64,000 nucleotides of DNA, from positions 372,001 to 436,000 of the forward strand of contig NZ_JARRAE010000001.1 of the NCBI RefSeq assembly GCF_030376605.1, written 5' to 3'. A program made the translations under genes and the position numbers. Under the pieces are notes generated by a model. That model searched no databases. It had not been told where the DNA came from and was given only the letters and a program-made list of their open reading frames with translations. The DNA comes from Pseudochrobactrum sp. sp1633. GTDB taxonomy: Bacteria; Pseudomonadota; Alphaproteobacteria; Rhizobiales; Rhizobiaceae. Positions 40,366 to 59,952 of the stretch are shown here, piece by piece; position 1 is the first letter of the stretch, and the number at the start of each line of letters is the position of its first letter.

Positions 40366-40439
40366 GGCCTCGTGGCGGAGTGGTTACGCAGAGGACTGCA
40401 AATCCTTGCACGGGGGTTCGATTCCCTCCGAGGCCTCCA
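40366..40439 (+). tRNA. tRNA-Cys (anticodon GCA), insertion site of the satellite
   Basis: Acceptor GGCCTCG/CGAGGCC, anticodon loop CTGCAAA, T stem GGGGG/CCCTC around TTCGATT, discriminator T, encoded CCA. The 3' half from the anticodon loop on has been supplied by the inserted element; a second 3' half lies at 51079-51122. Confidence 0.97.
40396..40410 (+). repeat. attL core of the satellite
   Basis: CTGCAAATCCTTGCA, the anticodon loop and 3' stem of tRNA-Cys, repeated exactly at 51079-51093. Tyrosine integrases often cross over at anticodon loops. Confidence 0.85.
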
Positions 40440-40501
40440 CCTTTAAAATCAAGCACTTAACTCAGTTTTTGATGTAGAAGATTTTTAGACTAAAGCGGCT
40501 C

Positions 40502-40522
40502 TGGTGACTCATTGGTGACTCA
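40502..40522. promoter_or_regulatory. Two TGGTGACTCA repeats (candidate integrase/Xis arm sites, left end)
   Basis: TGGTGACTCA occurs at 40502-40511 and 40513-40522, and inverted at 50952-50961 at the other end. Near both ends also AATACATTTT(T)GAATGT and GTAGTCCCG are shared. This symmetry is expected of integrase arm-type sites. The rest of 40440-40671 has no gene. Confidence 0.55.
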
Positions 40523-40671
40523 CTAAATACATTTTTGAATGTAGTCCCGCTCGAAACGCCCCTCTTTATTCCAGCCGTAGAAGACCCCTGAAGAGCGTTT
40601 GATTCGAGCTGGTGCATGGCGCTGAAAACAATGCCGCGCTTGCTGGTGGGGCAGGTTAAGGGAATGCGGCG

Positions 40672-41070
40672 CTATCTGATCTCAACCAGCTGAAACACAA
40701 TCCGGCTCATACCGTCGCGTCTTGCGCTGACGATCTCAAAGGAGCGAGGGTCACCGCTTATGCTGATCCGGTCGGCCTGTTTGGCTTCGTCGGCCAGTGG
40801 ATAGCTCACACGGTCAACGCTAAGTTCGAAAGTATGCCCTGTCGCAAGGGTGTGAAGGTCGTTGCCGCTGCGTTCGCGTTTTCCAATTTCAACAGCTTGA
40901 TAAACGTCATTTTCCTCAAAGACAGCTTTTCCCGTCCAGCTCACTCGATTTGGGTCTGCAACCGGTCGGCCATTAGGGCTACGCAGAGCCGGGCTGCAAG
41001 TGAACTCATTTGCAAACTGCCGGTCGATTGTTCGGCTCAGCGTCTGTTCTAGGCGGTCGAAAATGGACAT
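40672..41070 (-). CDS. Phage head-completion/head-tail-joining-like protein, 132 aa
   Basis: Begins MSIFDRLEQTLSRTIDRQF and continues with SPNGRPVADPNRVSWTGKAVFEEN and IGKRERSGND. This resembles the small structural protein that follows the capsid gene in many tailed phages and fills the head-tail interface; the assignment is from recalled family style, not a solid motif. Start: AGAGGAAC before the ATG at 41070; a longer frame to 41142 has no such site. It is last in the satellite's leftward capsid operon. Confidence 0.6.
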   Translation of the reverse strand: MSIFDRLEQTLSRTIDRQFANEFTCSPALRSPNGRPVADPNRVSWTGKAVFEENDVYQAVEIGKRERSGNDLHTLATGHTFELSVDRVSYPLADEAKQADRISISGDPRSFEIVSARRDGMSRIVFQLVEIR

Positions 41071-41090
41071 GGCAGTTCCTCTGTGAAAAT

Positions 41091-41123
41091 GCCCTTGCAC
41101 CGGGTTGTGCTCGGTACAAGGGC
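41091..41123 (-). other. Intercistronic hairpin before the head-completion gene
   Basis: GCCCTTG/CAAGGGC enclosing ACCG/CGGT. It lies 21 bp upstream of the start of the gene at 41070, on its mRNA; no T tract. Confidence 0.5.
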
Positions 41124-41220
41124 TGGATGCCACCACTGCCACGGAGCGGCAGCTGGCTTGTGGGGTGATTATTTTGAATACTCACGATCACCGGCGCGAG
41201 CCCCAATCGCTTGGGAAGCA

Positions 41221-41244
41221 CCCCACCGCCGCAAAGTGGTGGGG
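41221..41244 (-). other. Hairpin after the capsid gene
   Basis: CCCCACC/GGTGGGG stem with 10-nt loop, 13 bp past the capsid stop codon. It may protect the abundant capsid mRNA or trim read-through. Confidence 0.5.
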
Positions 41245-41256
41245 ATCTCATTGACC

Positions 41257-43146
41257 TTAGAGGCCAGCGTTTTTATAGGCACCTCTGAAGTCGATCACGC
41301 CGGCGCCGAAATCCAAATGAACACGGAAGTCAGTGCCCAAGGACTCAAACCCTTCGCGGTAAGCAATCTGCGGCCCCGGAGCACTGGAAAGATGCGCCCA
41401 TTCGATAACTGGCGCATTCGATGGTGCGGCAAACACATAGAAGGATTTGTCATCTATACGCGGCTCAACCAGAAGCTCGAGACGTCCACCGAATGGGTTG
41501 ACGTCGCTGGTTGTTGCAGCTGCCAGAGTTGCGAGGATCTTTTCCGCCTCAGTCTCCAGCTCTGGGCCGACAAGCAAGAATGACGGCGTTACACCAGCGA
41601 TAAGTTTGCCGCCAAAAGCCTTCTGCTTGCGCATGGACTTACGGGCTTCCGATAAGGCTGCAACATCCAATGCGCTACCGGCTGCAGCCAAGTTCTTATG
41701 GTCAGCGTGGAACAGCGCCTTCGAGTCCTCACCCACCTTTGGATTGGACAGCAGTAGACCGACGACGATCTGATTTTCGGTTTCAGCGGCTGAACGTCCG
41801 GCAGCACGAGACCAGTCAGCAAGGCCGGACAAGTCATCGTTGATTTGCGCATTGCGGCTCAGGCTGAAGATTCTGGCAAACGTGGACAAACCATAGCTTT
41901 CGGCTGCTTCACTGCGTGAAGTGGCTTTGATCTCACCAGATTCATTCAATGGCGCAAGTGTGTCGATATCACCGATTTTGATCTTCTGCGCCTTACGGAA
42001 ATCGCTCATGGTCGTGGAGCGGCAAAGGTGCTGCTTAATCGGGCTTTGCGCGGCCTCATATTGCGCCATTAGAATGCGCTCGCCAGCGCTCTGCAGAAGA
42101 AGCGGGAAATCGCTCGTGGTGTGCTGTCCGTATGAGCGCGTACTACCGCCGCCGAACACCGCGTCACGCGAAAGGTTCTGGGTGCTTATGCCGGCTGCTT
42201 CAAGCGAGGCACGGGCATGCTGCTCAAGTGTCCAGGACATGTACTGTCGAGCGCGTTCTGAAGGCTTATCGCCGCTCATACGGCAAGTCAGAGCCTCAAT
42301 GCGGGCTTCGGCTTCATCACTGCGCCCATCCATGCCTTGGGTTTTTACATGGGGAAATGTAGGTGATTTATTTTGGTGCTCCACCAGAATACTCAGAAGC
42401 TCTGAGCGGACATCGGCCTCGGTCATGCCACGTTTGATTTTGGCTTGCAGCTGGTCAGAATATTGTGTGTTGCCGGTGGTAGTGGCTAATTCAACGGCAA
42501 ACCCACGGACTTCACGTAGGTTCATGCTGCGATTTGAGGATTCATCGTTATTGCGCTGCTCATCATTTTCAGTTTCATGCTGGTCATTACGAATATAATT
42601 GCGTTTGGCTGGGTGTGTCATGTTGTTTTCCTTAAGGGATCTCGTTTTAGCAGTCGGATCTGCGGGTACGGGCACGACTGAGATTTCCATTGGTTGCCAG
42701 CGAGTTGCGGTAACGGTCGCAATGCTGCCCTGCTGAGGCTCGGTGCGTTCGGTTGTTAGAATTTTGTAGCCAACTGAGATTGGTAAGGCGTGACCGTCCT
42801 TCAGATCTTGGAGCAATTCTTCTGCTTTGGCGCGGCGGCTCAGCTTGACGGTCGCGGTCACTTGGCCAAGCTCAAACTTGATGGAGTTTGGCAATACCGT
42901 GCCTAAACGATCATCAAGGCTGTAAGCGCCGTGGCTGTCCAAAAGGCTCATGTTGTCGGCGCGGCTCAGATCGAGATTGTCACGGCCACACAGTAGGATC
43001 TCATCATAATGGCCCTCATCCCAAGAGTAGCGACGTACGGGCTGCTCACTGGCGAAAACCACTTGAACTGTGCGATCTTCGACATTCAGAGAACCGGTTA
43101 CAGCGGCAGCACGTGTGAGCATTTCAGGCTGCTGATGTCTGCTCAT
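41257..43146 (-). CDS. Prohead protease-major capsid protein fusion, 629 aa
   Basis: Residues about 1-175 are a HK97-type (U35) prohead protease: catalytic His in SLLDSHGAYS and Ser in ALPISVGYK, then WQPMEISVVPVPADP typical of its end. About 175-330 are a charged, helical linker rich in Asn, Glu and Arg, probably a scaffold (delta) domain. The remaining 300 residues are HK97-fold capsid-like, e.g. GKLIAGVTPSFLLVGPELETEAEKIL and LELLVEPRIDDKSFYVFAAPS. Protease, scaffold and shell protein are thus one chain that would cut itself. It overlaps the upstream HTH gene by 4 bp. Confidence 0.88.
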   Translation of the reverse strand: MSRHQQPEMLTRAAAVTGSLNVEDRTVQVVFASEQPVRRYSWDEGHYDEILLCGRDNLDLSRADNMSLLDSHGAYSLDDRLGTVLPNSIKFELGQVTATVKLSRRAKAEELLQDLKDGHALPISVGYKILTTERTEPQQGSIATVTATRWQPMEISVVPVPADPTAKTRSLKENNMTHPAKRNYIRNDQHETENDEQRNNDESSNRSMNLREVRGFAVELATTTGNTQYSDQLQAKIKRGMTEADVRSELLSILVEHQNKSPTFPHVKTQGMDGRSDEAEARIEALTCRMSGDKPSERARQYMSWTLEQHARASLEAAGISTQNLSRDAVFGGGSTRSYGQHTTSDFPLLLQSAGERILMAQYEAAQSPIKQHLCRSTTMSDFRKAQKIKIGDIDTLAPLNESGEIKATSRSEAAESYGLSTFARIFSLSRNAQINDDLSGLADWSRAAGRSAAETENQIVVGLLLSNPKVGEDSKALFHADHKNLAAAGSALDVAALSEARKSMRKQKAFGGKLIAGVTPSFLLVGPELETEAEKILATLAAATTSDVNPFGGRLELLVEPRIDDKSFYVFAAPSNAPVIEWAHLSSAPGPQIAYREGFESLGTDFRVHLDFGAGVIDFRGAYKNAGL

Positions 43147-43568
43147 GCCGCTTCCTTCCGAGCTAAGATTGCTTTCATCGCCGCAAGACGCTCAGAAGCA
43201 CGGGCAACAAATTCATGTAGCGCCAGAACAATGCTCATCGGGTGCACGTCGAGAACTGCCTCAAGATGTCGGCCTGTCAGTGTTGGGACTATGACGTCGC
43301 GTTTTGTGCCTTCGATGAAAACCAACCAAGCACGGCGTGAATTGTCACCAGCTGCATAACGGACTTCACTTGAAAAGCGCGAAACCAGCTCACAAGCTCG
43401 ATTAGTAACCAGCCCAGCATGCTGGAGCTCTGCGGCTGTAAGGATCATCACGCACGCTTGATCAGATAGCGCCTGATCTCCAATGTGCATGGCCTTGCGC
43501 AGTCTGTGCACTGACATTTCGGAAATGCCGAGTTCACGAGCAATGTCTGCTTGGCGTATTTGCCCCAT
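43143..43568 (-). CDS. HTH protein upstream of the capsid gene, 141 aa
   Basis: RQADIARELGISEMSVHRLRKA is an N-terminal helix-turn-helix (MerR/Xre-like). The rest is helical with no domain I recognise. It overlaps the capsid gene by 4 bp, so it is made with the capsid. It diverges from the tape-measure gene across a 109-bp promoter region with a palindrome, so it may regulate the structural genes of the satellite. Confidence 0.65.
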   Translation of the reverse strand: MGQIRQADIARELGISEMSVHRLRKAMHIGDQALSDQACVMILTAAELQHAGLVTNRACELVSRFSSEVRYAAGDNSRRAWLVFIEGTKRDVIVPTLTGRHLEAVLDVHPMSIVLALHEFVARASERLAAMKAILARKEAA

Positions 43569-43649
43569 CGTAGTTTTTCCTTATCGAATACACTGTGTTG
43601 ATAACATAAATCGGTGTAATCTGATAGTATAAATTAGAATGCAAATATA

Positions 43650-43664
43650 AATACGATACGTATT
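43650..43664. promoter_or_regulatory. Palindromic operator AATACG-ATA-CGTATT
   Basis: Perfect 6-bp arms around 3 bases, 13 bp before the tape-measure ATG and within the divergent promoter region. The same arms recur at about 49681-49696, so they probably bind one satellite regulator. Confidence 0.65.
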
Positions 43665-43677
43665 AGAGGTATTACTT

Positions 43678-46431
43678 ATGACCACAAGAACAGCGGCACT
43701 TAGACTTCAACTGATCGATGCCATTTCAGGGCCTGCAAAAGGGTCATCAAAGGCGCTTAGCGGCCTTGAGGGCTCAATCTCAAAGCTCGGCAAGGGTGGC
43801 ATGAAGGGCGCTAAAAACCTTGTTAACCAGCTGGAACACCTAAGACAAAAGTCCGCTGCTGTTGGACGGTTCTCAGCGTTGCGCCGTGGCACGGCTGCAG
43901 CCTTTGGTGAGTTTCGATCCGCTCGCGCTAATGTTAAGGCGCTCGAGGCAGCTCTCTCCTCTGCCACCAAGCCAACCGCCAAAATGGCGTCGGATTTGAA
44001 AACAGCCCGAGCTGCTCTGACAATGACGTCGGCCGCATTCAATCAACAGCGCACTGCTGCTCGCAATGCGGAGACCTCGCTGAGAACGTTCGGACTCAAT
44101 AGCCGAACCGCAATCAGCACATCTCAAGGCGAGATCCGTCGTCAAATGGCGCTGACTATTAGCAAAATGCGCCAAATGCGAACTGAAGCTGCAAAGCCGA
44201 TGCCAATTCGTAAACAAGCAATAGCGGCCAGCAATCGTTCTGGTGGCTACGGGTTTGCGGGAACCGCCGCTGGTGCATATGCGGCAGGAGCAGTCATAGC
44301 GAATCCCGTTCGCAAGGCCCTTTCTTACGATGAGCGACTGACGTACTTGGCTGGTACTATGGCTGATGACGGTAGCGCTGCGGACAAGCAACTCGCAAAA
44401 CAGGAAGCCTCTGACGCTATTCAGCGTGCTATTCAGATCGGTGGCGGTCGTCGTGATGATGCACTGGCTGGTCTGGATACGCTCGTCGCGTCCGGCGTTA
44501 TGGCTAAAGATGCCGCAATGCGTGTCTTGCCTACCGTCCAGAAAGCGGCTTTTGCGAGCGGTGCAAACACGGAAGACATTGCAAAATCAGTTGTCGCGAT
44601 GATCGTCAATGGCGTCGAGCAGGCAGACATTCCCTTCGCTTTGGACAAGATGCTCAGGGCGGGACAATCTGGCGGATTCGAGCTGAAAGATCTTTCGCGA
44701 TGGCTTCCAGCCCAAATGGCTTTGCTTCGCGGTAGCGGCATGACAGGTATCGACGCAGTCGAGTATCTTTCGGCTGCTAACCAGACGCAGCTGAAAACAG
44801 CTGGCAGTACCGATGAAGCCGCAAATAATCTGATCAATGTTCTTCAAAAGCTGAATAGCCGCGAACTGCAGAAAACAATGTCAGACCAAGTGAAGGCACG
44901 CCCGGGAGATCCGACGCTGACAGACGGCGGCTTTGACTGGCAAGGCTACATGATCCGACGGCGGCAGGAAGGTGTTGCTGCACCGGAGGCGTTGACTGAA
45001 ATTCTTAATCGCCAACTCGAAGATGATAAGAGATATCAGGCCCTTCTGGCAGATGCTCGCAATGCAAAAACTCAAAGCGAACGTATAAAAAATATCGACG
45101 GCGCCACCTCCATCGCAGAAGGCTCCGCGTTTGGCGCCCTGTTTGCAGACCGCCAGGCGTTGTTTGCTTCGATCGCGCTGCAAGTCTACAAGTCTGAGCA
45201 AAAGGCAATCGAGGCGAAGCTGGCTACCGCTCGTGGTGCGGTTGATGTCGAGTCCCAGTTCGTTCGTTCACAAACGTGGAGCAAGACGCAGGATTCGAGC
45301 AGCGCTCTCGACCTAGCAAATGAGAAAACTTTCGATGCCGTTTCAGGGCCGCTTGGATCACTCGCTGAGAAGATTGCCGAAACGAGTCGTGCATTTCCGG
45401 CGCTAACCACGGCAGTCTATGGAATTGCCACAACGTTGGGTGCCGTTGCCGGGGCCGGGATTGTGGGTGGCGTTGTCGGCGGCCGGTTAGCAGGTGGACG
45501 AGCTGGCCTCCTTGGCGCTGGCGGCGGTGCTACATCGCGGCTTGTTCGGACTACGAGGGTACTTGGCCCTGCGGCCGTGATAGCTGGCACCGGTCTGGAT
45601 GTTTATGACGCTGCCAATGATCCGAAACTCACGCAAGCCCAGAAGTCGGAACGGTACACGCGAGCCGGTACCGGTGCCGGTGGCGCTTTGGCCGGCGCAA
45701 AAGCCGGAGCTGCGCTTGGAGCATATGGCGGACCATGGGGTGCTGCAATTGGTGGTGCGGCTGGTGGCGTTGGTGGTTACTTCGTGGGCGATGCTGTCGG
45801 GGAATATCTGAGCGGGGCATTCACCTCAAAGGATCCAACGCGAGCAGCTGGTGACCAGCTCGCTCAGGAAACTATGAAATGGCACATCGCTGCACAGCAA
45901 GGGATGAGGGATTACGTCCACGCCCTCGCACAAGGTGGGGATGAGGCAGAGGCCAAGGCCGCGGTTATTGCCGCAGAAATAGAGCGGATTATGTCGTTCG
46001 AAGCTAATCCAACTGTTGCAACCGCAAGCCTAGAGCGAGCTCTTGGTCTGGCCCGACAGGTCGCGGCCGTCATCAGTGGCAATCCGGCAGTGGCAGCTCC
46101 TCCTTCCGGTGGCGGTGCGTCTATCAAGGTCGATGGTGCGAGAGCCAAAGGTGGTCCAGTCCGCAAGGGTGGCGTCTACCGTGTCAACGAGGAAGGCGAA
46201 GAGCTGTTTGTGCCAGGCACTGACGGCACCATCATTCCGCACGGCGCAAGCCTCAGCAGCGGTCGTCGCAGCGGTGGGCCAGTTTCAGTGGTCAATCACA
46301 ATAAATTTGAGATCAATGTGTATGGCGGTGGCGATGAAAAAGCGGCTCACCGATTGGCACAGATTATCGAGGGAAAACTTTCGCGGTCAGCACAGACGTT
46401 GTTCGGTGGTCTGAAGTTCGGAGATTTCTGA
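43678..46431 (+). CDS. Phage tail tape measure protein, 917 aa
   Basis: Helical N-terminus rich in Ala, Lys and Arg (about 1-180), TP901-type core with SYDERLTYLAGTMADDGSAADKQ and DDALAGLDTLVASGVM, hydrophobic Gly/Ala-rich segments (about 575-600 and 660-705), and a C-terminus with KGGPVRKGGVYRVNEEGEE and FVPGTDGTIIPH typical of tape measure proteins. Such proteins set tail length and help DNA injection. It is the only tail gene of the element and the only one on the + strand. Its GC and codon use do not look out of place beside its neighbours. Confidence 0.9.
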   Translation: MTTRTAALRLQLIDAISGPAKGSSKALSGLEGSISKLGKGGMKGAKNLVNQLEHLRQKSAAVGRFSALRRGTAAAFGEFRSARANVKALEAALSSATKPTAKMASDLKTARAALTMTSAAFNQQRTAARNAETSLRTFGLNSRTAISTSQGEIRRQMALTISKMRQMRTEAAKPMPIRKQAIAASNRSGGYGFAGTAAGAYAAGAVIANPVRKALSYDERLTYLAGTMADDGSAADKQLAKQEASDAIQRAIQIGGGRRDDALAGLDTLVASGVMAKDAAMRVLPTVQKAAFASGANTEDIAKSVVAMIVNGVEQADIPFALDKMLRAGQSGGFELKDLSRWLPAQMALLRGSGMTGIDAVEYLSAANQTQLKTAGSTDEAANNLINVLQKLNSRELQKTMSDQVKARPGDPTLTDGGFDWQGYMIRRRQEGVAAPEALTEILNRQLEDDKRYQALLADARNAKTQSERIKNIDGATSIAEGSAFGALFADRQALFASIALQVYKSEQKAIEAKLATARGAVDVESQFVRSQTWSKTQDSSSALDLANEKTFDAVSGPLGSLAEKIAETSRAFPALTTAVYGIATTLGAVAGAGIVGGVVGGRLAGGRAGLLGAGGGATSRLVRTTRVLGPAAVIAGTGLDVYDAANDPKLTQAQKSERYTRAGTGAGGALAGAKAGAALGAYGGPWGAAIGGAAGGVGGYFVGDAVGEYLSGAFTSKDPTRAAGDQLAQETMKWHIAAQQGMRDYVHALAQGGDEAEAKAAVIAAEIERIMSFEANPTVATASLERALGLARQVAAVISGNPAVAAPPSGGGASIKVDGARAKGGPVRKGGVYRVNEEGEELFVPGTDGTIIPHGASLSSGRRSGGPVSVVNHNKFEINVYGGGDEKAAHRLAQIIEGKLSRSAQTLFGGLKFGDF

Positions 46432-46433
46432 AT

Positions 46434-46473
46434 CGAAAATGGCGCCTCTGCATTTCACAGGGCGCCATTTTCG
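46434..46473. terminator. Bidirectional terminator between tape measure and terS
   Basis: 13-bp perfect stem CGAAAATGGCGCC/GGCGCCATTTTCG with 14-nt loop, located directly between the two convergent stop codons. Confidence 0.82.
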
Positions 46474-47082
46474 TTATGCCGCTGGGGCTTCGTTCGTGGC
46501 CTTTTTCGATCTCCGAGCCCGCGTTTGCTTCGTACCAAATCCAACAGGGCCCGCCGGTGGCGATGCATGTGAATTGAACAGGTGAACTCGTACATCGTCG
46601 GCGGTAGCACCACGCCGGATCATGTCGATGGCGACGTTCATCCAAGCGCAGAATGTCGCTTCAGCCCCATCCAGGGCGCGGTTTACAAGCGCTAGGTCCT
46701 TTTTCCCTTGGGGCCAAAGCGTATTGATAAGTGCTCGCTCAGTGCTCTGGATTGATTTCCGGCCAGCTAATTCGATGGCTGAAATTGCGTGATGGAATGC
46801 CTCAATTGAGATTGCGTCGCCTCGTTCAATCGCGAGTTTTTCCAAAAAGCGTGCATGTTCTGCTTGCTCACGATGCTCACGGCGTTGTCGTGCCGGCGAG
46901 TTGGTTTCAGCTTCACGATGAAGGTTATACGCCCTGAGGCTGTCAGCGAGCTTGTACTGGCCGCGCTTTGATCCGCGTACGAGACAACCGGCCTGAGCAA
47001 GCTGACGGACACGCGGCTCAGACAAGTCCAGCATTGCAGCAATTTGCGCTGAAGTTACTTGGATTTCATTGAAATCATTCAT
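46474..47082 (-). CDS. Small terminase subunit (Nu1-like TerS) of the satellite, 202 aa
   Basis: N-terminal winged helix VTSAQIAAMLDLSEPRVRQLAQAGCLVRG, followed by KRGQYKLADSLRAYNLH as in Nu1; a coiled-coil region; then a helical part with MNVAIDMIRRGATADDVR and a basic tail RARRSKKAT. TerS recognises the packaging site and recruits the large subunit. The layout matches the prophage TerS at 61353. In PICIs a private TerS redirects helper packaging. A GC-rich cos-like sequence lies 73 bp upstream. Confidence 0.78.
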   Translation of the reverse strand: MNDFNEIQVTSAQIAAMLDLSEPRVRQLAQAGCLVRGSKRGQYKLADSLRAYNLHREAETNSPARQRREHREQAEHARFLEKLAIERGDAISIEAFHHAISAIELAGRKSIQSTERALINTLWPQGKKDLALVNRALDGAEATFCAWMNVAIDMIRRGATADDVRVHLFNSHASPPAGPVGFGTKQTRARRSKKATNEAPAA

Positions 47083-47154
47083 TTTTTAGCTCCAATGATA
47101 ATGATAATAGATTTGTTTTGCGTGGCACGAGTGTCACATCACACGGTGCCGCCG

Positions 47155-47171
47155 ACCCGCGGTACCGCCCC
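47155..47171 (-). promoter_or_regulatory. Candidate cos (packaging) site of the satellite
   Basis: Minus strand GGGGCGGTACCGCGGGT. It resembles the lambda left end GGGCGGCGACCTCGCGGGT and shares ACCGCGGGT with 61235-61243 before the prophage terS, in the same orientation. The 129-bp gap around it is GC-rich and has no gene. Confidence 0.45.
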
Positions 47172-47211
47172 TCCCCCCGAAAGAACCTATGCCCTACGGG
47201 GGTGCTGTGGC

Positions 47212-47472
47212 TCATACAGGACCGATGCGGGGTATTGCCCCAGGCTGGGCATTCAAGAATGAAACCAATTCGCGTTGAGCTCTGCGTGCCTCGTGCTCGG
47301 TGGTAAACAGCCTTGATGAGGTCAGTTTCCCATTAAGGCGAACTGCCACCAGATGGGCCCCCCATGGCTCACATGGGACTGTCAGGCTTGTGCCGTCGAT
47401 CTCAACCGCGTGCCCTGTGACTGTCGCGATGATCGTCTGTATGCTGAATGTGGGGCCAAGGGGGGCGGTCAT
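47212..47472 (-). CDS. Satellite protein of unknown function, 86 aa
   Basis: Last gene of the 4-bp-overlap operon. MTAPLGPTFSIQTIIATVTG, then EPWGAHLVAVRLNGKLTSSRLF and an EARRAQRELVSFLN helix. No domain recognised; the overlap with the gene before it supports expression. Confidence 0.6.
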   Translation of the reverse strand: MTAPLGPTFSIQTIIATVTGHAVEIDGTSLTVPCEPWGAHLVAVRLNGKLTSSRLFTTEHEARRAQRELVSFLNAQPGAIPRIGPV

Positions 47473-47654
47473 GGCTGCAACCTCTCGCCTTCGGCTCTAG
47501 CCTCTGCCTGTCCCTCTATGGGCTCTGATATGGTGCCTGTTTGATTTTCTATGGTGGGTGGCCTTTTTCTCTGAAGGGGTGGCATGTCATTTTCACGGGC
47601 TACGAGCTGCATGGCGCAAGCAAATGTTCGGATGATGCTGCATGGCTGGGTCAT
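47469..47654 (-). CDS. Satellite protein of unknown function, 61 aa
   Basis: Short, with a polar, Pro/Glu-rich C-terminus (PPLQRKRPPTIENQTG). It overlaps both neighbours by 4 bp (ATGA), which is the main reason to consider it real. Confidence 0.5.
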   Translation of the reverse strand: MTQPCSIIRTFACAMQLVARENDMPPLQRKRPPTIENQTGTISEPIEGQAEARAEGERLQP

Positions 47655-47941
47655 GATGCACCTCCCGCTGTCTTGCGGTCGAATGACAGGACGCGGCTAT
47701 GTCCACGGGACAGGCAATCGAGTTCGGTGATCCGCTCATTCAGAGCTGACAGAAAATCATCTGCACGTTTGAAGGCTTCCCATCTCTTCAGTCCTGCTCT
47801 GGCGGCTTCTGAGATGATCTGTGTCTCAAGCTGTCGAATACGTTTTGCTCTGTGAGCTGGCCTTATTTTGCGGATCTCGGCAGCCTCTAGACGAATAATA
47901 ACCTCGTAATCATGCGGGAACATATGAATTATACATTTCAT
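47651..47941 (-). CDS. Satellite protein of unknown function, 96 aa
   Basis: Predicted mainly helical and basic: LEAAEIRKIRPAHRAKRIRQ and an AFKRADDFLSALNERITELD helix. Overlaps both neighbours by 4 bp. No domain recognised. Confidence 0.6.
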   Translation of the reverse strand: MKCIIHMFPHDYEVIIRLEAAEIRKIRPAHRAKRIRQLETQIISEAARAGLKRWEAFKRADDFLSALNERITELDCLSRGHSRVLSFDRKTAGGAS

Positions 47942-48771
47942 GCGATTGCCTCCATGTGCCTAGAGCCAAGTCCTGGACCATCAGTGCATTGTATAGACCT
48001 ATCAACCTGCACAACGATAACCGGATGAGTTATATGATTGGATGAAATCCCGCGAAGCGGTGTATTGTTATGTTCTCTGTTAAGTGACTCCCCACAGGAA
48101 CCTTCAAGGGTTCCTCCCAGGAACCTGTTGCTGTTTTGCAACGCATTAAATTGAGCGGCTTCTTCATTCCATTTATCGATCGGATTAAGCCTGTAAGCGG
48201 TGCCTCTAAGTGATCTTCGACTGACATTCACGGCGAGCTTTCGCTGCTCTTCAGGCAGGTTTTTAACTTTGACCGGGCTTAGAGCTCCAATCTCAAATGA
48301 GCGACGGAGTGCCTTGCCAAAGTTTGAACCTCGGGAGTATCCAAGCTCTGCAGCAATGCGCTCCTGCGACGGCCATGCATAGCGGTGCTGATGATTTATG
48401 TGCGACCAGATACGCAGTGCGGCGATCTTTTCGTGTGCGGTCATTTCTGGATGAATGATAATGCTATCGTGCCATTGCTTGAGCACAGCATAGCCAGAGG
48501 CCACCTGTTGCTTCTCAAACTTGCGAACAATCTTGATTATTTGACCTTGATCGAGCCCGGATTGCTCAGCGAAAGTGTTAACATCCCAGCGAAGGAACTG
48601 CTCAGCATCAAAACCCGGCTGTTGGAAAAGCTGGTGCAGCTTAGCCTGCGCTAAATCTTGTGGGCTTGCCTGATCAGAGTAGCCCTGATACATTTCGGAT
48701 TGATTGAACTTGCTATCTGCCTCTGCTCCGGCTGCTACCGGGCAGGGGCGTTTCTTTGCGGTGGCGGTCAT
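47938..48771 (-). CDS. Putative satellite replication protein with winged helix, 277 aa
   Basis: The middle part has a helix-turn-helix of initiator/primosomal type: AHEKIAALRIWSHINHQHRYAWPSQERIAAELGYSRGSNFGKALRR. The N-terminal third is Gln-rich. The C-terminal part loses recognisable structure and carries a DNA repeat cluster (48096-48125). By position (after AlpA, before TerS) it corresponds to the replication gene of PICIs. It could instead be only a regulator. Confidence 0.6.
   Translation of the reverse strand: MTATAKKRPCPVAAGAEADSKFNQSEMYQGYSDQASPQDLAQAKLHQLFQQPGFDAEQFLRWDVNTFAEQSGLDQGQIIKIVRKFEKQQVASGYAVLKQWHDSIIIHPEMTAHEKIAALRIWSHINHQHRYAWPSQERIAAELGYSRGSNFGKALRRSFEIGALSPVKVKNLPEEQRKLAVNVSRRSLRGTAYRLNPIDKWNEEAAQFNALQNSNRFLGGTLEGSCGESLNREHNNTPLRGISSNHITHPVIVVQVDRSIQCTDGPGLGSRHMEAIA
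48096..48125. repeat. Triple AGGAACC repeat inside the putative replication gene
   Basis: AGGAACC at 48096-48102, inverted GGTTCCT at 48109-48115, direct again at 48119-48125. The first two form a hairpin with a 6-nt loop. It could be an iteron-like origin within the replication gene (inference). Confidence 0.45.
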
Positions 48772-49031
48772 ATGCGAGCCCCCCGTTTCTTGGCAATGAG
48801 GTCATTCAAAAGTTCTTCCGCTTGCCAATCACACAAACCCGGACCCGCGATCAGCGTACCGTATGTGTTGCAGTCTATTGTCCAGCCCCCAGTCGCAAGA
48901 CGAGTTTTGCTCGCATATAATCCGAGGCGCTGGGCCTTCCGGCGAATGCGCATTTCTGTGGCAACCTGACCGCGCCGGCCTTTCTCGTTGAAGTTCAGCA
49001 ATGTGGATTTCGAGAGGTGGGGCGTTCTCAT
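48768..49031 (-). CDS. Satellite protein of unknown function, 87 aa
   Basis: Basic N-terminus (GRRGQVATEMRIRRKAQRLG) then a more polar half ending CDWQAEELLNDLIAKKRGARI. Overlaps both neighbours by 4 bp. No domain recognised. Confidence 0.6.
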   Translation of the reverse strand: MRTPHLSKSTLLNFNEKGRRGQVATEMRIRRKAQRLGLYASKTRLATGGWTIDCNTYGTLIAGPGLCDWQAEELLNDLIAKKRGARI

Positions 49032-49237
49032 CGGGCTTCTCCTTCCGACAACTCGCAGACGCGGCGTTCCATATCGCGAGCGAGCAAGTGAATTCGCTCG
49101 GCGTGTTTCGCCGAAATGATGATGACTTGCTGGCCGTTGAGGTCTGAGACGATGCTCAGGTGATCACTCACGAGATTCCCTATAAGCCCGGATACGGTCT
49201 TGAGATCTTCTATGCGCTCGACGTGATTGAGGGTCAT
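49028..49237 (-). CDS. Satellite protein of unknown function, 69 aa
   Basis: MTLNHVERIEDLKTVSGLIG, then NGQQVIIISAKHAERIHLLA: one short strand-helix unit, mostly acidic. Overlaps both neighbours by 4 bp. No domain recognised. Confidence 0.6.
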   Translation of the reverse strand: MTLNHVERIEDLKTVSGLIGNLVSDHLSIVSDLNGQQVIIISAKHAERIHLLARDMERRVCELSEGEAR

Positions 49238-49476
49238 CGGGCCGCCCTCACTTCACGGGCTGCAGGGTCAACGATGCGACTGCGGGCGAACTCAACAAGC
49301 CATTCGCGGCGGTAGAACACGCGACGGCCAATTTTGAGAAACCGGGGGCCTTTGGATTGGGTGCGCCACACGGTTAACGTGCGTGGCACGAGCTTCAAAA
49401 GATCTGCTGCTTCTTCTTCGGAGAGAAGGCCGTCTAGATCGTCGAAGTGTTCTGTACTACTATTTGGGGTGTTCAT
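49234..49476 (-). CDS. AlpA/Xis-like helix-turn-helix regulator, 80 aa
   Basis: EEEAADLLKLVPRTLTVWRTQ is the first part of a MerR-like HTH, then KGPRFLKIGRRVFYRREWLV as wing: the excisionase/AlpA family. In satellites AlpA switches on excision and replication. It is the first gene of a seven-gene operon with 4-bp overlaps down to 47212. Its ribosome site (AAAGGA) is inside a long hairpin (49483-49532). Confidence 0.8.
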   Translation of the reverse strand: MNTPNSSTEHFDDLDGLLSEEEAADLLKLVPRTLTVWRTQSKGPRFLKIGRRVFYRREWLVEFARSRIVDPAAREVRAAR

Positions 49477-49482
49477 TGTTTA

Positions 49483-49532
49483 GCATCCTTTAGTTGTTAT
49501 TCGTGAAGAACCTCGAATAACAACTAAGATGC
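49483..49532 (-). promoter_or_regulatory. Long hairpin over the ribosome site of the AlpA operon
   Basis: 14-bp perfect arms TTAGTTGTTATTCG/CGAATAACAACTAA with 10-nt loop, extended by GCATC/GATGC across a 2-nt bulge. On the mRNA the descending arm contains CTAAAGGATGC, the likely ribosome site, 8-14 bases before the AlpA start. Confidence 0.6.
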
Positions 49533-49680
49533 CTTAAACATGCTGTGACCAACCAGAAGATTCGTAAATATTAGCTTTGGCAAATTTCATATTTGATGAA
49601 ATTATATTGGTCAGATATTGATTTTATTGAGCATAAATCCTGTGGATAACTTTCGACTTGTATTGCTTATCTAATAACTA

Positions 49681-49696
49681 AATACGTTGCGTATTG
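49681..49696. promoter_or_regulatory. Palindromic operator AATACG-TTG-CGTATT
   Basis: Same 6-bp arms as at 43650-43664. It lies between the AlpA operon promoter and the end of the integrase gene; a degenerate copy TATACG-TTT-CGTACT follows and overlaps the integrase stop. My position here may be off by one base. Confidence 0.6.
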
Positions 49697-49701
49697 TATT
49701 T

Positions 49702-50934
49702 CTATACGTTTCGTACTTTCCGAGGCTTGCTTGGTGACGTTGTTGCTTGCTTCCGGATAGGTGTTGCACCTTGTTTTTCGACTGCTCCAGCCATTGCTGC
49801 GGCCATGCGGTCGCCAACATCCTGCGATGCTTTCGAAGCTGGGGCGTCAGTTAGATGGACATATCTCTGAGTTGTGGCGGCCACGGTGTGCCCGAGCAGA
49901 GCGCCAATCATCGGCAGGTTATGACCAGCCAAGGCGGCTTCAGACGCGAACGTGTGACGTGCATCGTATAGCCTCACGTCATCTAGTCCGGCCAATTTGC
50001 GAACATCACCCCAAGAGTTTGTGAGGCGGGCCATTGGCTTGTTTTTGTCACGACCAGCGAAGACGAACTTGCCAAACCGCGGCATGGCGGTCATCACCGT
50101 CCAAGCGGCGAGATTTGTATAAAGGATCCTCTGTCGATTTGCCTTAGAGTCCGGCAGGACGACACGTTGCCGGTCATGGTCTAGGTGCGTCCATTCGATG
50201 GCGGTGATCTCGGCAGGGCGGGCACCGGTCAGAATGGCGAAGCGCAATGCCCCAGCTATCCAGACGGATATTTTTTGGTCGCCCTCAGCCTTTTGGATGG
50301 CGACAAAGACACGCTCCAGCTCTTGGGGCGACATAATCCTCTCGCGTTGGGTCTCTCGGTAACGCTTAATACCTGCGGTGATACCTGAGTGATCATTGAA
50401 CGCACAGATTGTGCTCAGCGTGGTCAGGTAATAGTTCGCCCTGCGCTTGGTCGCGGACATGGCTGCATGAAGCTCCAGGGCGTCGGCTTTGCTGATGCTC
50501 TCCAGAGATCGGCCTGTGAAACGTTCTTTCAGAGCATCCGATATTTTTTCGTAATCTCGGATCGTCAGAGGTTTCAGTTTTGTGCGGACATGCAGATTGA
50601 GCCAACGCTCGACAGCGTCGGCAAAACTGAGGGGTGGGGTTGCTTCCGGCTCTTCGGAGCGGATCTCCCGCCGTGGGTCACTACCTTGACTCATATCGAG
50701 CAGGAGCTTACGGGCCTCGTCTCGAGCTTTCAGAACTGAGATATCAGGGAACCGGCCAATGGTGACGCGAAGCCCTTTTCCGGCTACCCGACGTTGGGCA
50801 ATGAAAATCTTAGAGCCTGATTTCGTCGTCCGGATGCCGAACCCCTTCACGAGGTCGTCAAAAATGATTCTGTCTTTGCCGTCTATCGGCAGATCCTTGA
50901 CAAACTCGGCTGTCAGTCGAACTTGAGTCCCCAC
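49702..50934 (-). CDS. Tyrosine integrase of the satellite, 410 aa
   Basis: N-terminal arm-binding domain of DUF4102 type (LVKGFGIRTTKSGSKIFIAQRRV, LRVTIGRFPDISVLKARDEARKLL), core-binding domain, then the catalytic domain: Arg in AILTGARPAEITAIEW, Arg in YDARHTFAS, His in LLGHTVAATTQ and Tyr in QRYVHL. The first His of the usual HxLR box is Tyr here (LYDAR). Start is GTG at 50934. Located at the right end, 145 bp from attR. Confidence 0.93.
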   Translation of the reverse strand: MGTQVRLTAEFVKDLPIDGKDRIIFDDLVKGFGIRTTKSGSKIFIAQRRVAGKGLRVTIGRFPDISVLKARDEARKLLLDMSQGSDPRREIRSEEPEATPPLSFADAVERWLNLHVRTKLKPLTIRDYEKISDALKERFTGRSLESISKADALELHAAMSATKRRANYYLTTLSTICAFNDHSGITAGIKRYRETQRERIMSPQELERVFVAIQKAEGDQKISVWIAGALRFAILTGARPAEITAIEWTHLDHDRQRVVLPDSKANRQRILYTNLAAWTVMTAMPRFGKFVFAGRDKNKPMARLTNSWGDVRKLAGLDDVRLYDARHTFASEAALAGHNLPMIGALLGHTVAATTQRYVHLTDAPASKASQDVGDRMAAAMAGAVEKQGATPIRKQATTSPSKPRKVRNV

Positions 50935-50951
50935 GTCCTTTGCACCTCCAT

Positions 50952-50961
50952 TGAGTCACCA
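50952..50961 (-). promoter_or_regulatory. Inverted TGGTGACTCA (candidate arm site, right end)
   Basis: Exact reverse complement of the repeats at 40502-40522, just upstream of the integrase start; followed by AATACATTTTGAATGT as at the left end. Confidence 0.5.
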
Positions 50962-51078
50962 GGAATACATTTTGAATGTGTTTTTCATAAAGGTGCAAGG
51001 AACTTTGGTCAATCTAAATGCTTGCAAATAAAGGGTTTCAGTGTAGTCCCGAACCCTCCCTAATAGCCCCCTTGGAGC

Positions 51079-51122
51079 CTGCAAATCCTTGCACCCCGGT
51101 TCGATTCCGGGCGAGGCCTCCA
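51079..51122 (+). repeat. attR: displaced 3' half of a tRNA-Cys gene
   Basis: 44 bp from the anticodon loop to CCA. It differs from the intact tRNA-Cys (40396-40439) at six positions, all in the T stem (CCCGG/CCGGG instead of GGGGG/CCCTC), so pairing is kept. It is probably attL of the neighbouring prophage as well. Confidence 0.85.
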
Positions 51123-51241
51123 TCTAAATTCTAAGCATTTGTTATATATGATTTATTTTGCTTAAATCCCTTACTAATGAACGAGGTGAGGGCAAAGTGC
51201 GTATATAATCTCTGAATTTCTATCATGAAAAACAATGAAAT

Positions 51242-51269
51242 AAAAAAGCCAGCTAGAGAATTAGCTGGC
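51242..51269 (-). terminator. Intrinsic terminator of the prophage integrase gene
   Basis: 8-bp stem GCCAGCTA/TAGCTGGC with 6-nt loop; six T follow on the minus strand. Confidence 0.9.
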
Positions 51270-51293
51270 ATTTATGGTTGTAAAATTCCATTT

Positions 51294-52382
51294 TTAATCG
51301 GCTTGTTTTTTATTTTTTCTTCTTGAGCGGGTGAGAGCGATTTCACTCTCAATCTGGTCTGCAACGCGTCTGGAGTTTTTAATGCCTAGGCGCACTCTGT
51401 CTGCGCCTTTGGTGTAAAGTTCTGCCTGTTTAACATTTGACCAGCCATATTGTGCCATTAGCTCATGTGTGGCTGCACCGGCTTCTGCAGATAGAGTTGC
51501 AGAAAGTTTGCGCAACCCGTGTGCGCTTTTCTTGATGCCGGCATCATTACATCTGTCTCTGAACCAGTTTCCAAAACTGGCAACTTCAAATGCATTACCA
51601 GCTTCACTGATGAGGAATGTGTTGATTCCGGTTTCAGTAACGGAAATCACATCCAGCAACGCCTTAGGAAACTCTACGGTAATCTGGGAACCGGTTTTTT
51701 GAGTTTTAATGCTGAAAATATTGCCGCGCATGTGCTGGCGGCCAGCGCGCACAACGTCAGATCGACGCAATCCGGTATGCAGTAACAATTCTACCGCAAG
51801 ACGAGCTTTGGTCCCTACTGGCCATCGATCATAGAACTGTAGCAGATCTTCCATTGTCCAGGGCGCGAAACCAACGGTTTTGTATTTTAACGGCAATACG
51901 CCTGCAGTTGGATCAATGGTCACATAATCATTTTGGAGTGCCCAGCTGAAGAGACCTCGCATTGCTTTCAGGAAGTGATTAGCTTGGGCAGGCGTGTCAG
52001 CTCGTGCTTCAAGAGCCATAACCATCGAGCGGCGGTCAATTGCTGTGTAGCGGGTATTATTGGAGCGTTTGATTGCCTCAATAAAAATGTTCTCTCGTTG
52101 GCGCTGTGTTGCAATCGAAAATGCTCTCCATGTGGAACTTTCACGATACCGGTCAATAAGCCATCGCAAGCTATAGGGCTGGGTAGGAATACCACGCGGG
52201 GCTTCTTCGATTTTATAGCCCATTACAGCTTGCTTGTAGCCTTCTTTGAATTCCCGTGAGTTCACATCATCGGGCAGACGCACGCGTAAACCTTTCCCGA
52301 TCCGGTAAAAATATTTCACTTTGCCGTGTCTGCTCACTTCACGCACAACATGAGGTGGGAGTTTACGTCTCAGTTTGGTCAT
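51294..52382 (-). CDS. Tyrosine integrase of the prophage, 362 aa
   Basis: Tyrosine recombinase with SAM-like core-binding domain (about 60-160) and catalytic domain: Arg in LLLHTGLRRSDVVRA, HGLR in KKSAHGLRKLSATLSAEAG, Trp in MAQYGWSN (at the usual His/Trp place) and Tyr in AELYTKGAD. It differs clearly from the satellite integrase, although both elements appear to use tRNA-Cys. Its 3' end faces the att site. Confidence 0.93.
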   Translation of the reverse strand: MTKLRRKLPPHVVREVSRHGKVKYFYRIGKGLRVRLPDDVNSREFKEGYKQAVMGYKIEEAPRGIPTQPYSLRWLIDRYRESSTWRAFSIATQRQRENIFIEAIKRSNNTRYTAIDRRSMVMALEARADTPAQANHFLKAMRGLFSWALQNDYVTIDPTAGVLPLKYKTVGFAPWTMEDLLQFYDRWPVGTKARLAVELLLHTGLRRSDVVRAGRQHMRGNIFSIKTQKTGSQITVEFPKALLDVISVTETGINTFLISEAGNAFEVASFGNWFRDRCNDAGIKKSAHGLRKLSATLSAEAGAATHELMAQYGWSNVKQAELYTKGADRVRLGIKNSRRVADQIESEIALTRSRRKNKKQAD

Positions 52383-52570
52383 TACAGCCGCACTATATTT
52401 TTATGTTCAATCAAATGAGGATAGGTATCTGTGAGTGGTGCAGGTTGCACTGATAAAGAGCCGTCAGCTTCTAGGCGCACACTCACGCCCTGCTCTTTGG
52501 CAATGATCGCTGCACTGCGGATTTGCGCGCGGGTGTAACGCATTTTCTCTCTTTCGGCTTTGTGATCCAT
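52382..52570 (-). CDS. Small prophage protein, 62 aa, unknown function
   Basis: Contains RYTRAQIRSAAIIAKEQGVSV, a possible HTH-like helix pair, and overlaps the integrase start by one base. A strong GGAGGTGAG lies 5 bases before the ATG. It might be an excisionase-like factor by position next to int; no clear motif. Confidence 0.6.
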   Translation of the reverse strand: MDHKAEREKMRYTRAQIRSAAIIAKEQGVSVRLEADGSLSVQPAPLTDTYPHLIEHKNIVRL

Positions 52571-52572
52571 GC

Positions 52573-53346
52573 TTACTCACCTCCCTGTGCCAAAGCGGCA
52601 CGCATTCCCGGCCATTGTCTGATTAATAGATCGGCCGGTATCTCCGCTTTTCGTGACATTTGCTTCATGAAGAACGACCGGTTAAGGCTGGCGCATTGAT
52701 GCTTCAGCGATCGAAACCATTCCGGATTCGCGTATCGCGCTTTATGAGCGCCCTGATCTGTTTCTCCACCGGTGATAATCCAGTCCGGCGCGTGCGCATC
52801 CAGTCGTATAGGACTGAGCAGGGGTTCGAAGCTGCCAAAGGTGAATACAGGCTCCCGCCGCTCCTTTACCTCCTTAAGCTTCCAGTTATCCCGATCGTAT
52901 TCCTCTTGGTTCGCAATGGTCGCGCCGATCGCCACATTATTCGGCAGAAGAGGGTTGCCGCGCATTGGATCTGTCATTTTGATAACATTGCCAATGCGCT
53001 TAGTCAGCAGCAGCCACGTAAGGTTCGGTGTTGCCTCGATCAGCTTAAACAGATCTCGCCGCCAAAGGTCATCAACTTCATTGTCGAACACATCGGCAAG
53101 TGATGCGCAAAACACGAATGACGCGCCGGTTAGGCCAGATGCTGCTTTGTCCCATGCCAAAGGCTTGCGCCAATTGCTTTCGCTGGTGCGTCGCCTGTCT
53201 TCGCCGGCACCCCATTCAACACGACCGAGACGATTTGCCATGAGGTTTTCAGCATAGCAGCCGTCACATGCAGGGGAAACTTTGGTACAACCAATCCACG
53301 GATTGAACGTGTGATCAGTCCATTCGATTCTACTGTTTTCAGCCAT
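52573..53346 (-). CDS. DUF5131 (phage Gp37/Gp68-type) protein, 257 aa
   Basis: Starts AENSRIEWTDHTFNPWIGCTKVSPACDGCYAE: the N-terminal Cys cluster (CTKVSPACDGC) and the WxxNPWxGC pattern are typical of the Gp37/Gp68 family found in phages. The family has a radical-SAM-like look, but its activity is not known to me. AGGAG lies 9 bases before ATG 53346; an ATG at 53352 is the alternative. Part of the leftward early operon. Confidence 0.8.
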   Translation of the reverse strand: MAENSRIEWTDHTFNPWIGCTKVSPACDGCYAENLMANRLGRVEWGAGEDRRRTSESNWRKPLAWDKAASGLTGASFVFCASLADVFDNEVDDLWRRDLFKLIEATPNLTWLLLTKRIGNVIKMTDPMRGNPLLPNNVAIGATIANQEEYDRDNWKLKEVKERREPVFTFGSFEPLLSPIRLDAHAPDWIITGGETDQGAHKARYANPEWFRSLKHQCASLNRSFFMKQMSRKAEIPADLLIRQWPGMRAALAQGGE

Positions 53347-53581
53347 TACCATAATCTCCTTGCGCCAAGGCTGTGCGGCCTGAGAGGCTTAATACACATG
53401 GATACTGGTTAAGCGTGTCGTTACGCTGCCCCCATGTAGCCAAACCCATTGCAATTAAACGTCCAACAACCTGAGGGCTTGCGACATTTATACGCCATGC
53501 TGCATACCCATGATTTGCGCGGTAGACCTCACCGTTATCGATCAGTAAAAGCGTTTCCTTCTGTGCGATTGTCAGTTTCAC
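53339..53581 (-). CDS. Small prophage protein, 80 aa, unknown function
   Basis: LTIAQKETLLLIDNGEVYRA and VVGRLIAMGLATW suggest a compact winged-helix-like fold. It overlaps both neighbours (4 bp with the gene before it, 8 bp with DUF5131), indicating one coupled operon. Confidence 0.6.
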   Translation of the reverse strand: MKLTIAQKETLLLIDNGEVYRANHGYAAWRINVASPQVVGRLIAMGLATWGQRNDTLNQYPCVLSLSGRTALAQGDYGNG

Positions 53582-53778
53582 TTGCCTGCCTCCAATAGTG
53601 CTGCATGGCCTGTGAATAGCTGGGAGAGAGCTGTTTTTGCGGCCTTATAAACGGACAAAATCAAATATTTGTAGCAAGATTGGCGGTGATGAATCGCGCT
53701 GGAACGCGATCCATCACCTCTCATTCCTTCATGGAAACAGCACAAAGGAACGGTCTGAATGAATAGAAATCTTGTCAT
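53578..53778 (-). CDS. Doubtful small prophage ORF, 66 aa
   Basis: It overlaps both neighbours by 4 bp, which speaks for translation. The sequence is unusual (Cys- and His-rich) and is largely taken up by a perfect RNA hairpin at 53685-53718, which speaks for a non-coding role. I keep it with low confidence. Confidence 0.4.
   Translation of the reverse strand: MTRFLFIQTVPLCCFHEGMRGDGSRSSAIHHRQSCYKYLILSVYKAAKTALSQLFTGHAALLEAGK
53685..53718 (-). other. Strong RNA hairpin in the early leftward transcript
   Basis: On the minus strand GGTGATGG-ATCGCG pairs with CGCGAT-TCATCACC over 14 bp (one G-U) with a TTCCAG loop. No T tract, so not an ordinary terminator. Confidence 0.55.
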
Positions 53779-53981
53779 GGCCGCACTAACTCAAACAGGT
53801 CGTTTGGCTGGCAGTTTAATATCTGGCATAATGTAGCCATCTGCTTGTAGGAAATGGATTTGGACTTGCCATTTATGAGCAAGGAGACATTTGGCTCCGT
53901 GATATTGAGCAGTGGTGCCAATTGGCGGCCGCGGATGCCTGCTTGAGCCATACGAGCTTTGATATTGACCTTAATTTGCAT
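53775..53981 (-). CDS. XRE-family HTH protein, 68 aa
   Basis: Almost only a Cro/C1-type HTH: IKARMAQAGIRGRQLAPLLN, then ITEPNVSLLINGKSKSISYK. First recognisable regulator of the leftward operon; could be Cro-like or control of the integrase operon. Confidence 0.8.
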   Translation of the reverse strand: MQIKVNIKARMAQAGIRGRQLAPLLNITEPNVSLLINGKSKSISYKQMATLCQILNCQPNDLFELVRP

Positions 53982-54101
53982 GCAAGTTCTCCTTCTGCCG
54001 GAGGGTGCGGCAGTTGTGGCAGTGTCAGATTGTTGGGGTGGCTTAGTCAGGTTCGGTTCTGCAATTCAGAATAATCTGAATGATTGCCGTTTCTAAGTCG
54101 C

Positions 54102-54320
54102 TCACATCACCGTTTTAACTGAGCGCTTGCGGGCAAGGTTGGCGGCTTTGAGGCCGTAACGGGAAATGTCGCCCATATTGTAGCCACGTCCGCGCAAGTT
54201 CTCCGGTGTTACGGCTTCACCTGCAGCGTCCATATCCTGCATAGTCGCGGCCATACCAGAGACGATGCACAATTCTTGAATTGATGGTGCCGGAGCAGGG
54301 CGGGTTTCATAAATGATCAT
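54102..54320 (-). CDS. Small prophage protein, 72 aa, unknown function
   Basis: MIIYETRPAPAPSIQELCIV at the N-terminus, GYNMGDISRYGLKAANLARK near the C-terminus, which looks like a small DNA-binding or adaptor helix pair. GAGGTTATAATC precedes the ATG. Its promoter region carries two copies of the repressor operator, so it is probably repressor-controlled. Confidence 0.6.
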   Translation of the reverse strand: MIIYETRPAPAPSIQELCIVSGMAATMQDMDAAGEAVTPENLRGRGYNMGDISRYGLKAANLARKRSVKTVM

Positions 54321-54398
54321 GATTATAACCTCTGGTGATCATAGCTTTGATTTTGTAGCCGTTTTGAAATGGCAAACAGAATGCTAGATACAGAGATA

Positions 54399-54443
54399 GA
54401 GGTAAAATTACCGCTAGTCAATCGTATACGGTAAAAAAACCTC
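54399..54443. promoter_or_regulatory. Two repressor operators left of the repressor gene
   Basis: GAGGT-AAAATT-ACCGC (54399-54414) and ACGGT-AAAAAA-ACCTC (54428-54443), both close to GCGGT-N6-ACCGC, 79-123 bp before the leftward gene at 54320. Confidence 0.65.
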
Positions 54444-54544
54444 TTTTAGTGTGTGATGATGAGATGAAAAATATCACTCTGAACTTGCTGCTTTATGCAG
54501 CATAGTTCAGTTGCTTATAAATTATTACAATTGATGTTGAATGA

Positions 54545-55186: not shown

Positions 55187-55189
55187 AAT

Positions 55190-55268
55190 GCGGTAATATG
55201 ACCGCTTTTGATGGGTTTTGTTAGCGGTATTAATACCATTGACATAAGCGGTAAAATAACCGCTTATG
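55190..55268. promoter_or_regulatory. Right operator region with three repeats
   Basis: GCGGT-AATATG-ACCGC (55190-55205), GCGGT-ATTAAT-ACCAT (55224-55239) and GCGGT-AAAATA-ACCGC (55248-55263; arms extend to 10 bp as CATAAGCGGT/ACCGCTTATG, 55243-55268). They are centred 24-34 bp apart between the divergent repressor and Cro-like genes, much as lambda OR. Confidence 0.8.
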
Positions 55269-55273
55269 TCCGT

Positions 55274-55519
55274 ATGTTGAAAATCACTCATCTATTAGAC
55301 CTTGCTGACAGATATCAGGCTGTTGAGTTTTGTGCTGACAAAACTCTCAGTAATCGACTGTTTAGTGATACCAAAAAACTCTCAGCCCTTAGAAATGGGG
55401 CTGATATTACTGTTTCTCGTTTCAATGACGCAGTTCTGTGGTTTTCCCATAACTGGCCGGATAAGGCGGCATGGCCTGATAATATCATGCGTCCTTGTAC
55501 TGATGAGGTGGTGCAATGA
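55274..55519 (+). CDS. Cro-like prophage regulator, 81 aa
   Basis: MLKITHLLDLADRYQAVEFC, then an HTH-like TLSNRLFSDTKKLSALRNGA and a conserved-looking WFSHNWP end. I recall similar small regulators next to repressors in Rhizobiales prophages. It starts just right of the third operator. The frame is open to 55208, but that part contains the operators. Confidence 0.7.
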   Translation: MLKITHLLDLADRYQAVEFCADKTLSNRLFSDTKKLSALRNGADITVSRFNDAVLWFSHNWPDKAAWPDNIMRPCTDEVVQ

Positions 55520-59870: not shown

Positions 59871-59952
59871 CGGCTCTATGGCAGGCACAAACCAGATAAT
59901 GAAGGTGCTTAGTGATGGGTGCTGCTGGCTGGGGCAAGGGCGTGACTCTTCC

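Follow-up and report, generated by a model that had tools for sequence, protein, structure and literature searches.

A tape measure gene divergent from the capsid gene in a Pseudochrobactrum phage satellite, with a mosaic product and a putative role in chimeric tails

Why would a phage satellite carry a tape measure protein (TMP) gene as its sole tail gene? The locus that raises this question lies in a 64-kb window, the whole stretch of DNA analyzed here (Pseudochrobactrum sp. sp1633, contig NZ_JARRAE010000001.1, positions 372,001-436,000, forward strand); coordinates below are window positions, and the element within the window is referred to as the sp1633 satellite. Its TMP gene (43678-46431, +) starts with ATG and encodes 917 aa with no internal stops. 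The product matched Pfam PhageMin_Tail (PF10145; E 6.7e-15, 55.9 bits, cut-off 33.2) and, over residues 80-712, the PHROGs tape measure family phrog_794 (E 2.7e-113), a profile match across the core that bears out the initial annotation of a tape measure gene in a satellite.

The element occupies ~10.7 kb (40396-51094) within a tRNA-Cys gene, with a 16-bp att core repeated in the tRNA-Cys (40396) and at 51079, and joining its flanks by script restored a tRNA-Cys. Intact tRNA-Cys genes of six congeners have a 3' half corresponding to the sequence at 51079-51124, not to that at 40396; hence, the satellite entered the tRNA-Cys bringing its own 3' half, and the 3' half of the gene now at 40366-40439 is satellite-supplied. 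As a bounded integrative element devoid of autonomous-virion genes, it falls among the phage satellites. Its features are as follows.

40396-40411, +, attL core CTGCAAATCCTTGCAC, within tRNA-Cys gene 40366-40439, repeated at 51079
40672-41070, -, predicted neck stopper/head-completion protein, lambda gpFII-like, 132 aa from an internal ATG, placed by fold comparison
41257-43146, -, prohead protease-major capsid protein fusion, 629 aa (phrog_4523, 2.3e-165)
43143-43568, -, small HTH regulator candidate, MerR-like fold, 141 aa (AlphaFold2 pLDDT 94)
43650-43664, +, palindrome AATACGATACGTATT, AATACG-N3-CGTATT (6+3+6), in the TMP promoter region
43678-46431, +, TMP, 917 aa: N module 1-178, phage-like core ~206-582, glycine-rich stretch, C module 728-916
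46434-46473, no strand, 13-bp perfect inverted repeat separating the convergent TMP and TerS genes, possibly a two-way terminator
46474-47082, -, terminase small subunit (TerS), 202 aa (phrog_57, 8.2e-10; 35% to the Agrobacterium rubi satellite TerS)
47212-47941, -, three small genes of no assigned function (86, 61, and 96 aa; ORF calls)
47938-48771, -, replication-initiation-like HTH protein, 277 aa (HTH_36, 4.7e-6; phrog_270, weak)
48768-49237, -, two small genes of no assigned function (87 and 69 aa; ORF calls)
49234-49476, -, AlpA-like excisionase/regulator, 80 aa (HTH_17, 2e-7; phrog_66, 1e-7)
49681-49695, +, second exact palindrome copy AATACGTTGCGTATT, beside the integrase gene, between integrase and alpA
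49703-49717, degenerate third palindrome copy, beside the second
49702-50934, -, tyrosine integrase, 410 aa (Phage_integrase, 1.8e-19; Arm-DNA-bind_3, 2.3e-12)
51079-51094, +, attR core; the 3' end of the host tRNA-Cys, now displaced, spans 51079-51124

The capsid fusion also matched Pfam Phage_capsid_4, Mu-like_gpT, and Peptidase_S78. The 156-aa ORF at 40672 gave no match in a phage sequence search and was placed by fold comparison only: its AlphaFold2 model (pLDDT 80) matched the lambda neck protein 8k37_M with Foldseek (E 9e-6) and VIA (Z 12.2, rmsd 2.4 over 105), and its homologues adjoin the capsid gene in relatives. Since the model has the fold of lambda gpFII and of stoppers in general, the satellite is predicted to provide its own neck protein. 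For the 141-aa protein between the capsid and TMP genes, the HTH fold was predicted with confidence and the MerR-like assignment is borderline, with CvkR, a MerR-type regulator, as the best and single fold match (E 1e-3), and an HTH_23 match falling under the Pfam cut-off. The 277-aa HTH protein is 49% identical to its A. rubi satellite homologue, and the gene at 47651-47941 also has a homologue there. Searches with Pfam and PHROGs found no gene matching a large terminase or portal in 40396-51094, and the remaining unassigned genes, at 61-96 aa, are too short for either. Among the proteins scanned, these collections gave no further tail family, as initially claimed, and no match to a tail assembly chaperone, although a divergent one among the 61-96-aa genes is conceivable.

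The TMP gene indeed lies opposite (+) to all other sizeable satellite genes (-). It had been called a lone gene; that description holds insofar as it is the sole tail gene of the sp1633 satellite, but its position is a family trait, since it and the capsid gene form a divergent pair that relatives conserve. The two are parted by the 141-aa regulator candidate gene and a ~110-bp intergenic region (43569-43677). The proposed promoter region with a palindromic operator is therefore present as to region and palindrome, the operator being a candidate only. The exact arm pair occurred twice in 64 kb (43650 and 49681), both times inside the satellite, and was absent from all unrelated loci checked. 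With two mismatches allowed, the motif was not enriched (five found versus 1.9 expected), so the evidence is the exact recurrence. Divergent regions of seven relatives held no convincing equivalent recurring palindrome, which confines support for an operator to the sp1633 element, where 43650-43664 is a candidate operator of the divergent TMP and regulator-capsid promoter. A separate 14-bp perfect inverted repeat, TTAGTTGTTATTCG/CGAATAACAACTAA, lies immediately upstream of the alpA start codon (49490-49527) and is possibly an operator or hairpin.

We surveyed 297 genomes from the host family, plus viral contigs, for related elements. TMP matches at E 1e-20 occurred in five other genomes and capsid matches in 46 of the 297 in total; peptide-pattern TMP searches of the genome and viral collections returned no relatives, and capsid alignment searches did. 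The divergent capsid/TMP pair was present in nine satellites, from Rhizobiaceae sensu lato and one viral contig: sp1633, A. rubi TR3, Tianweitania populi, a Rhizobium MAG, G069, Notoacmeibacter marinus, a Rhizobiaceae MAG, Rhizobium sp. PDO1-076, and viral contig L144, in which the TMP gene runs off the contig end. Their capsids are ~37-49% identical to that of sp1633, and the mapped loci of this class yielded neither a large terminase nor a portal, sheath, tube, or hub. The Rhizobium sp. FKL33 satellite (L074) has no TMP; in the TMP-less FKL33 satellite, a 190-aa gene (phrog_1281, unknown) fills the divergent position (L050 11026-11598). In Flavimaribacter, the TMP is codirectional and accompanied by a hub-like gene. 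A second class, found in many Alphaproteobacteria, encodes TerS, large terminase, portal, capsid, and integrase, and a few of its members have a TMP. Portal-encoding satellites or satellite-like contigs with the TMP on the capsid strand were seen at L051, L149, L120, L196, and L174, the first four also with a large terminase, and in satellite-like loci L047 (7190-10375) and L058 (1661-5456) a gpD-like tail protein gene (phrog_52) came after the TMP.

In a capsid tree, a quick build with several long branches and some class labels taken from short contigs, satellites and phages occupied mostly opposite sides, with sp1633 in a seven-member group (support 99); satellite capsids thus appear to be a lineage for the most part distinct from that of phage capsids. 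L144 bears a TMP-less label in this tree, despite the TMP gene at its contig end. The no-portal class was not confined to one position, and repeated loss, exchange, or paraphyly are all possible. A remnant or frameshifted TMP, which would have undercut the initial annotation, was not what the relatives showed: they keep the frame open, and differences between satellite TMP pairs increase from second to first to third codon position, as in their capsid genes. This codon pattern points to purifying constraint, and at the sequence level, the sp1633 TMP gene is not a remnant.

The newest point of our finding is that these TMPs combine constant ends with variable cores. Within the comparison set, the first 180 residues of the sp1633 TMP matched only satellites (49% A. 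rubi, 43% Tianweitania, 37% G069, and 30% Rhizobium MAG), and matches of this module to public phages were weak (E 8e-5). Another run extended the A. rubi match, weakly, up to residue 343, so the module border is soft. The last 190 residues were likewise most similar to A. rubi (44%) and Tianweitania (43%), and the C-terminal motif is widespread among phage TMPs. The core (within residues 201-600) did not match these satellites and was 35% identical to the SuMu TMP over 385 aa. Cores of the G069 and Rhizobium MAG TMPs are of the PPF1/RR1-A type (37-40%), that of Notoacmeibacter is AmM-1-like (36%), and the PDO1-076 TMP is P2-like along its whole length, giving Mu-like, PPF1/RR1-A, P2-like, and AmM-1 core relatives. 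Sheath genes adjoin the TMP gene in SuMu, KS10, PPF1, RR1-A, and AmM-1, and neighbor it in the phages of G230, G498, G419, and G581. By sequence comparison, satellite TMPs therefore read as mosaics, with ends like those of other satellites and cores like those of phages that are nearly all contractile-tailed. At 917 aa versus 592-815 aa in the compared phages, the sp1633 TMP would predict tails roughly 10-50 nm longer.

From the element borders, intact TMP gene, gene content, divergent pair, contractile-type core, and palindrome recurrence, we infer that the TMP probably works within a capsid-encoding satellite that supplies the head itself, takes terminase, portal, and contractile tail from a helper, and assembles chimeric tails on its own tape measure. 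Upon induction, the satellite would produce its own head from the protease-capsid fusion, together with the neck stopper; its TerS would recruit the large terminase of a helper phage, which would also supply the portal. The filled head would then be joined to contractile helper tails polymerized around the satellite TMP, yielding chimeric tails whose length, and possibly DNA-delivery behavior, would be set by the satellite. The TMP gene would be fired divergently from the capsid genes, presumably through the ~110-bp region, its palindromic site, and the small HTH regulator gene alongside. The N-terminus of the phage TP901-1 TMP is thought to contact the neck and its C-terminus the baseplate (PMC5099701), which, taken with the mosaic TMPs, leads us to the tentative idea of an exchangeable adaptor, in which the constant head-proximal end fits the satellite's own neck and the core is swapped in from phages to match the available contractile helper tail. 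PDO1-076 and Notoacmeibacter have the stopper in common with sp1633, but not the N module. If the adaptor reading is true, one satellite lineage could switch between unrelated helpers. The mosaic TMPs make it testable which part suits the helper and which the head.

Satellite-built chimeric tails have so far been shown only for the PLE satellites of Vibrio cholerae, whose own TMP enters chimeric tails that are 10 nm shorter and whose tmp deletion cut transfer by 96-99.9% (PMC12987554). The initial proposal, in which the satellite may dictate the length or an injection property of helper tails, has a precedent there as regards a satellite TMP in helper tails. The sp1633 satellite resembles PLEs in having a TMP that differs from the helper's, in lacking sheath, tube, and fiber genes, and in its predicted chimeric contractile tails (PMC12987554). 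Unlike PLEs, which carry a tail assembly chaperone, in some cases a hub, and remodel helper capsids (PMC12987554), it pairs its TMP with no recognized chaperone, encodes its own capsid protein (the fusion at 41257-43146) and stopper rather than using a helper capsid protein, and keeps the TMP alone opposite the capsid operon. Predicted Escherichia coli satellites with capsid, TMP, and a baseplate part have been described (PMC10448857); those matching phages Inny, Muut, and Mt1B1_P17 likewise combine capsid protein and TMP with tRNA-side integration and few morphogenesis genes, but they encode a baseplate component as well as a decoration protein and are without terminase, protease, and alpA, whereas the sp1633 satellite has TerS, a fused protease, AlpA, and the stopper, and no hub (PMC10448857). 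As far as the gene lists given in PMC13230959 and PMC10448857 go, cf-PICIs share with the sp1633 satellite an own capsid, protease, neck protein (head-tail connector), AlpA, and TerS, and a borrowed tail; set against the same lists, it is without large terminase, portal, and HNH gene. In our capsid tree, the capsid lineage is shared with the terminase-portal satellites found here, and some cf-PICIs have putative tmp genes (PMC12987554, Extended Data Fig. 10b). The contractile phages SuMu and KS10 are comparable only through the core, as the N- and C-terminal modules have their nearest counterparts in other satellites. The sp1633 element fully matches none of PLEs, cf-PICIs, or E. coli satellites. 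It represents a further group of satellites, from Rhizobiaceae and their relatives, in which only capsid and tape measure, the two proteins that set virion dimensions, are retained along with neck and TerS, while portal and large terminase are lost.

The same chimeric tail could serve escape or delivery instead of length, which we consider rather unlikely: a TMP unlike the helper's would evade TMP-directed exclusion or tail-assembly defenses, or suit other hosts. PLE11 escapes Rta, which targets the helper TMP, through its own TMP (PMC12987554), TMPs function in genome injection (PMC5099701), and satellite cores vary widely, whereas a ruler would need length alone; however, no TMP-aimed exclusion or defense gene was identified in our analysis of sp1633. 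It is improbable that the TMP mainly poisons helper tail assembly, an excess titrating chaperone, hub, or tube and lowering helper yield with no need for the protein in satellite particles. Satellites and prophages are known to use such interference (PMC11364771; PMC12987554), and the TMP gene has its own promoter region, yet a poison would need no full-length ruler conserved end to end, and this TMP retains its two ends and an entire core; moreover, the gene is paired with capsid genes, and known tail inhibitors are other proteins.

No helper was found in the sp1633 genome. The only PF10145 matches in the sp1633 genome are in the satellite and the neighboring prophage (51294 to ~83.5 kb), a lambda-like siphophage with a GpA terminase, the sole GpA-type terminase of the genome, a lambda-type portal, and a 592-aa TMP. 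We regard it as quite doubtful that this siphophage is the helper and builds the TMP into noncontractile tails. It adjoins the satellite at the same tRNA-Cys, a related prophage without the satellite occurs in congener G230 (where the tRNA-Cys runs straight into DNA with 85% identity to 51079-52602, the prophage left end), its GpA-type terminase could be served by a Nu1-type TerS, and its TMP is ~47% identical to that of the satellite in a ~73-89-aa C-terminal stretch. That stretch is the only resemblance, however, and its motif is common across many phage TMPs; the two TMPs differ in length by 325 aa, and the satellite core is closest to contractile-phage TMPs, which makes the adjacent siphophage an unlikely tail source. 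A profile that finds most related sheaths but not all (it detects those of the RR1-A, PPF1, G230, and G419 phages and misses that of G498) found no sheath gene in the sp1633 genome, and host genomes of related satellites were mostly without one detectable by it. Congener G230 harbors a P2-like myophage whose capsid belongs, broadly, to the satellite's capsid family, and this type is the likeliest helper for chimeric contractile tails in sp1633. A decaying prophage with a leftover TMP, suggested by the absence of a portal, a large terminase, and almost every tail gene, is very improbable given that the same reduced set with an intact TMP recurs in all nine elements across the capsid divergence noted above, with a purifying codon pattern and clean borders.

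The satellite and the siphophage prophage stand in tandem at one tRNA-Cys (51079-64000 and the contig beyond), no att repeat for the prophage right end being found before the contig end. As read from sequence, the prophage region also encodes a NusG-like protein (58197-58847) and a GGDEF-motif protein, probably a diguanylate cyclase (59157-59870).
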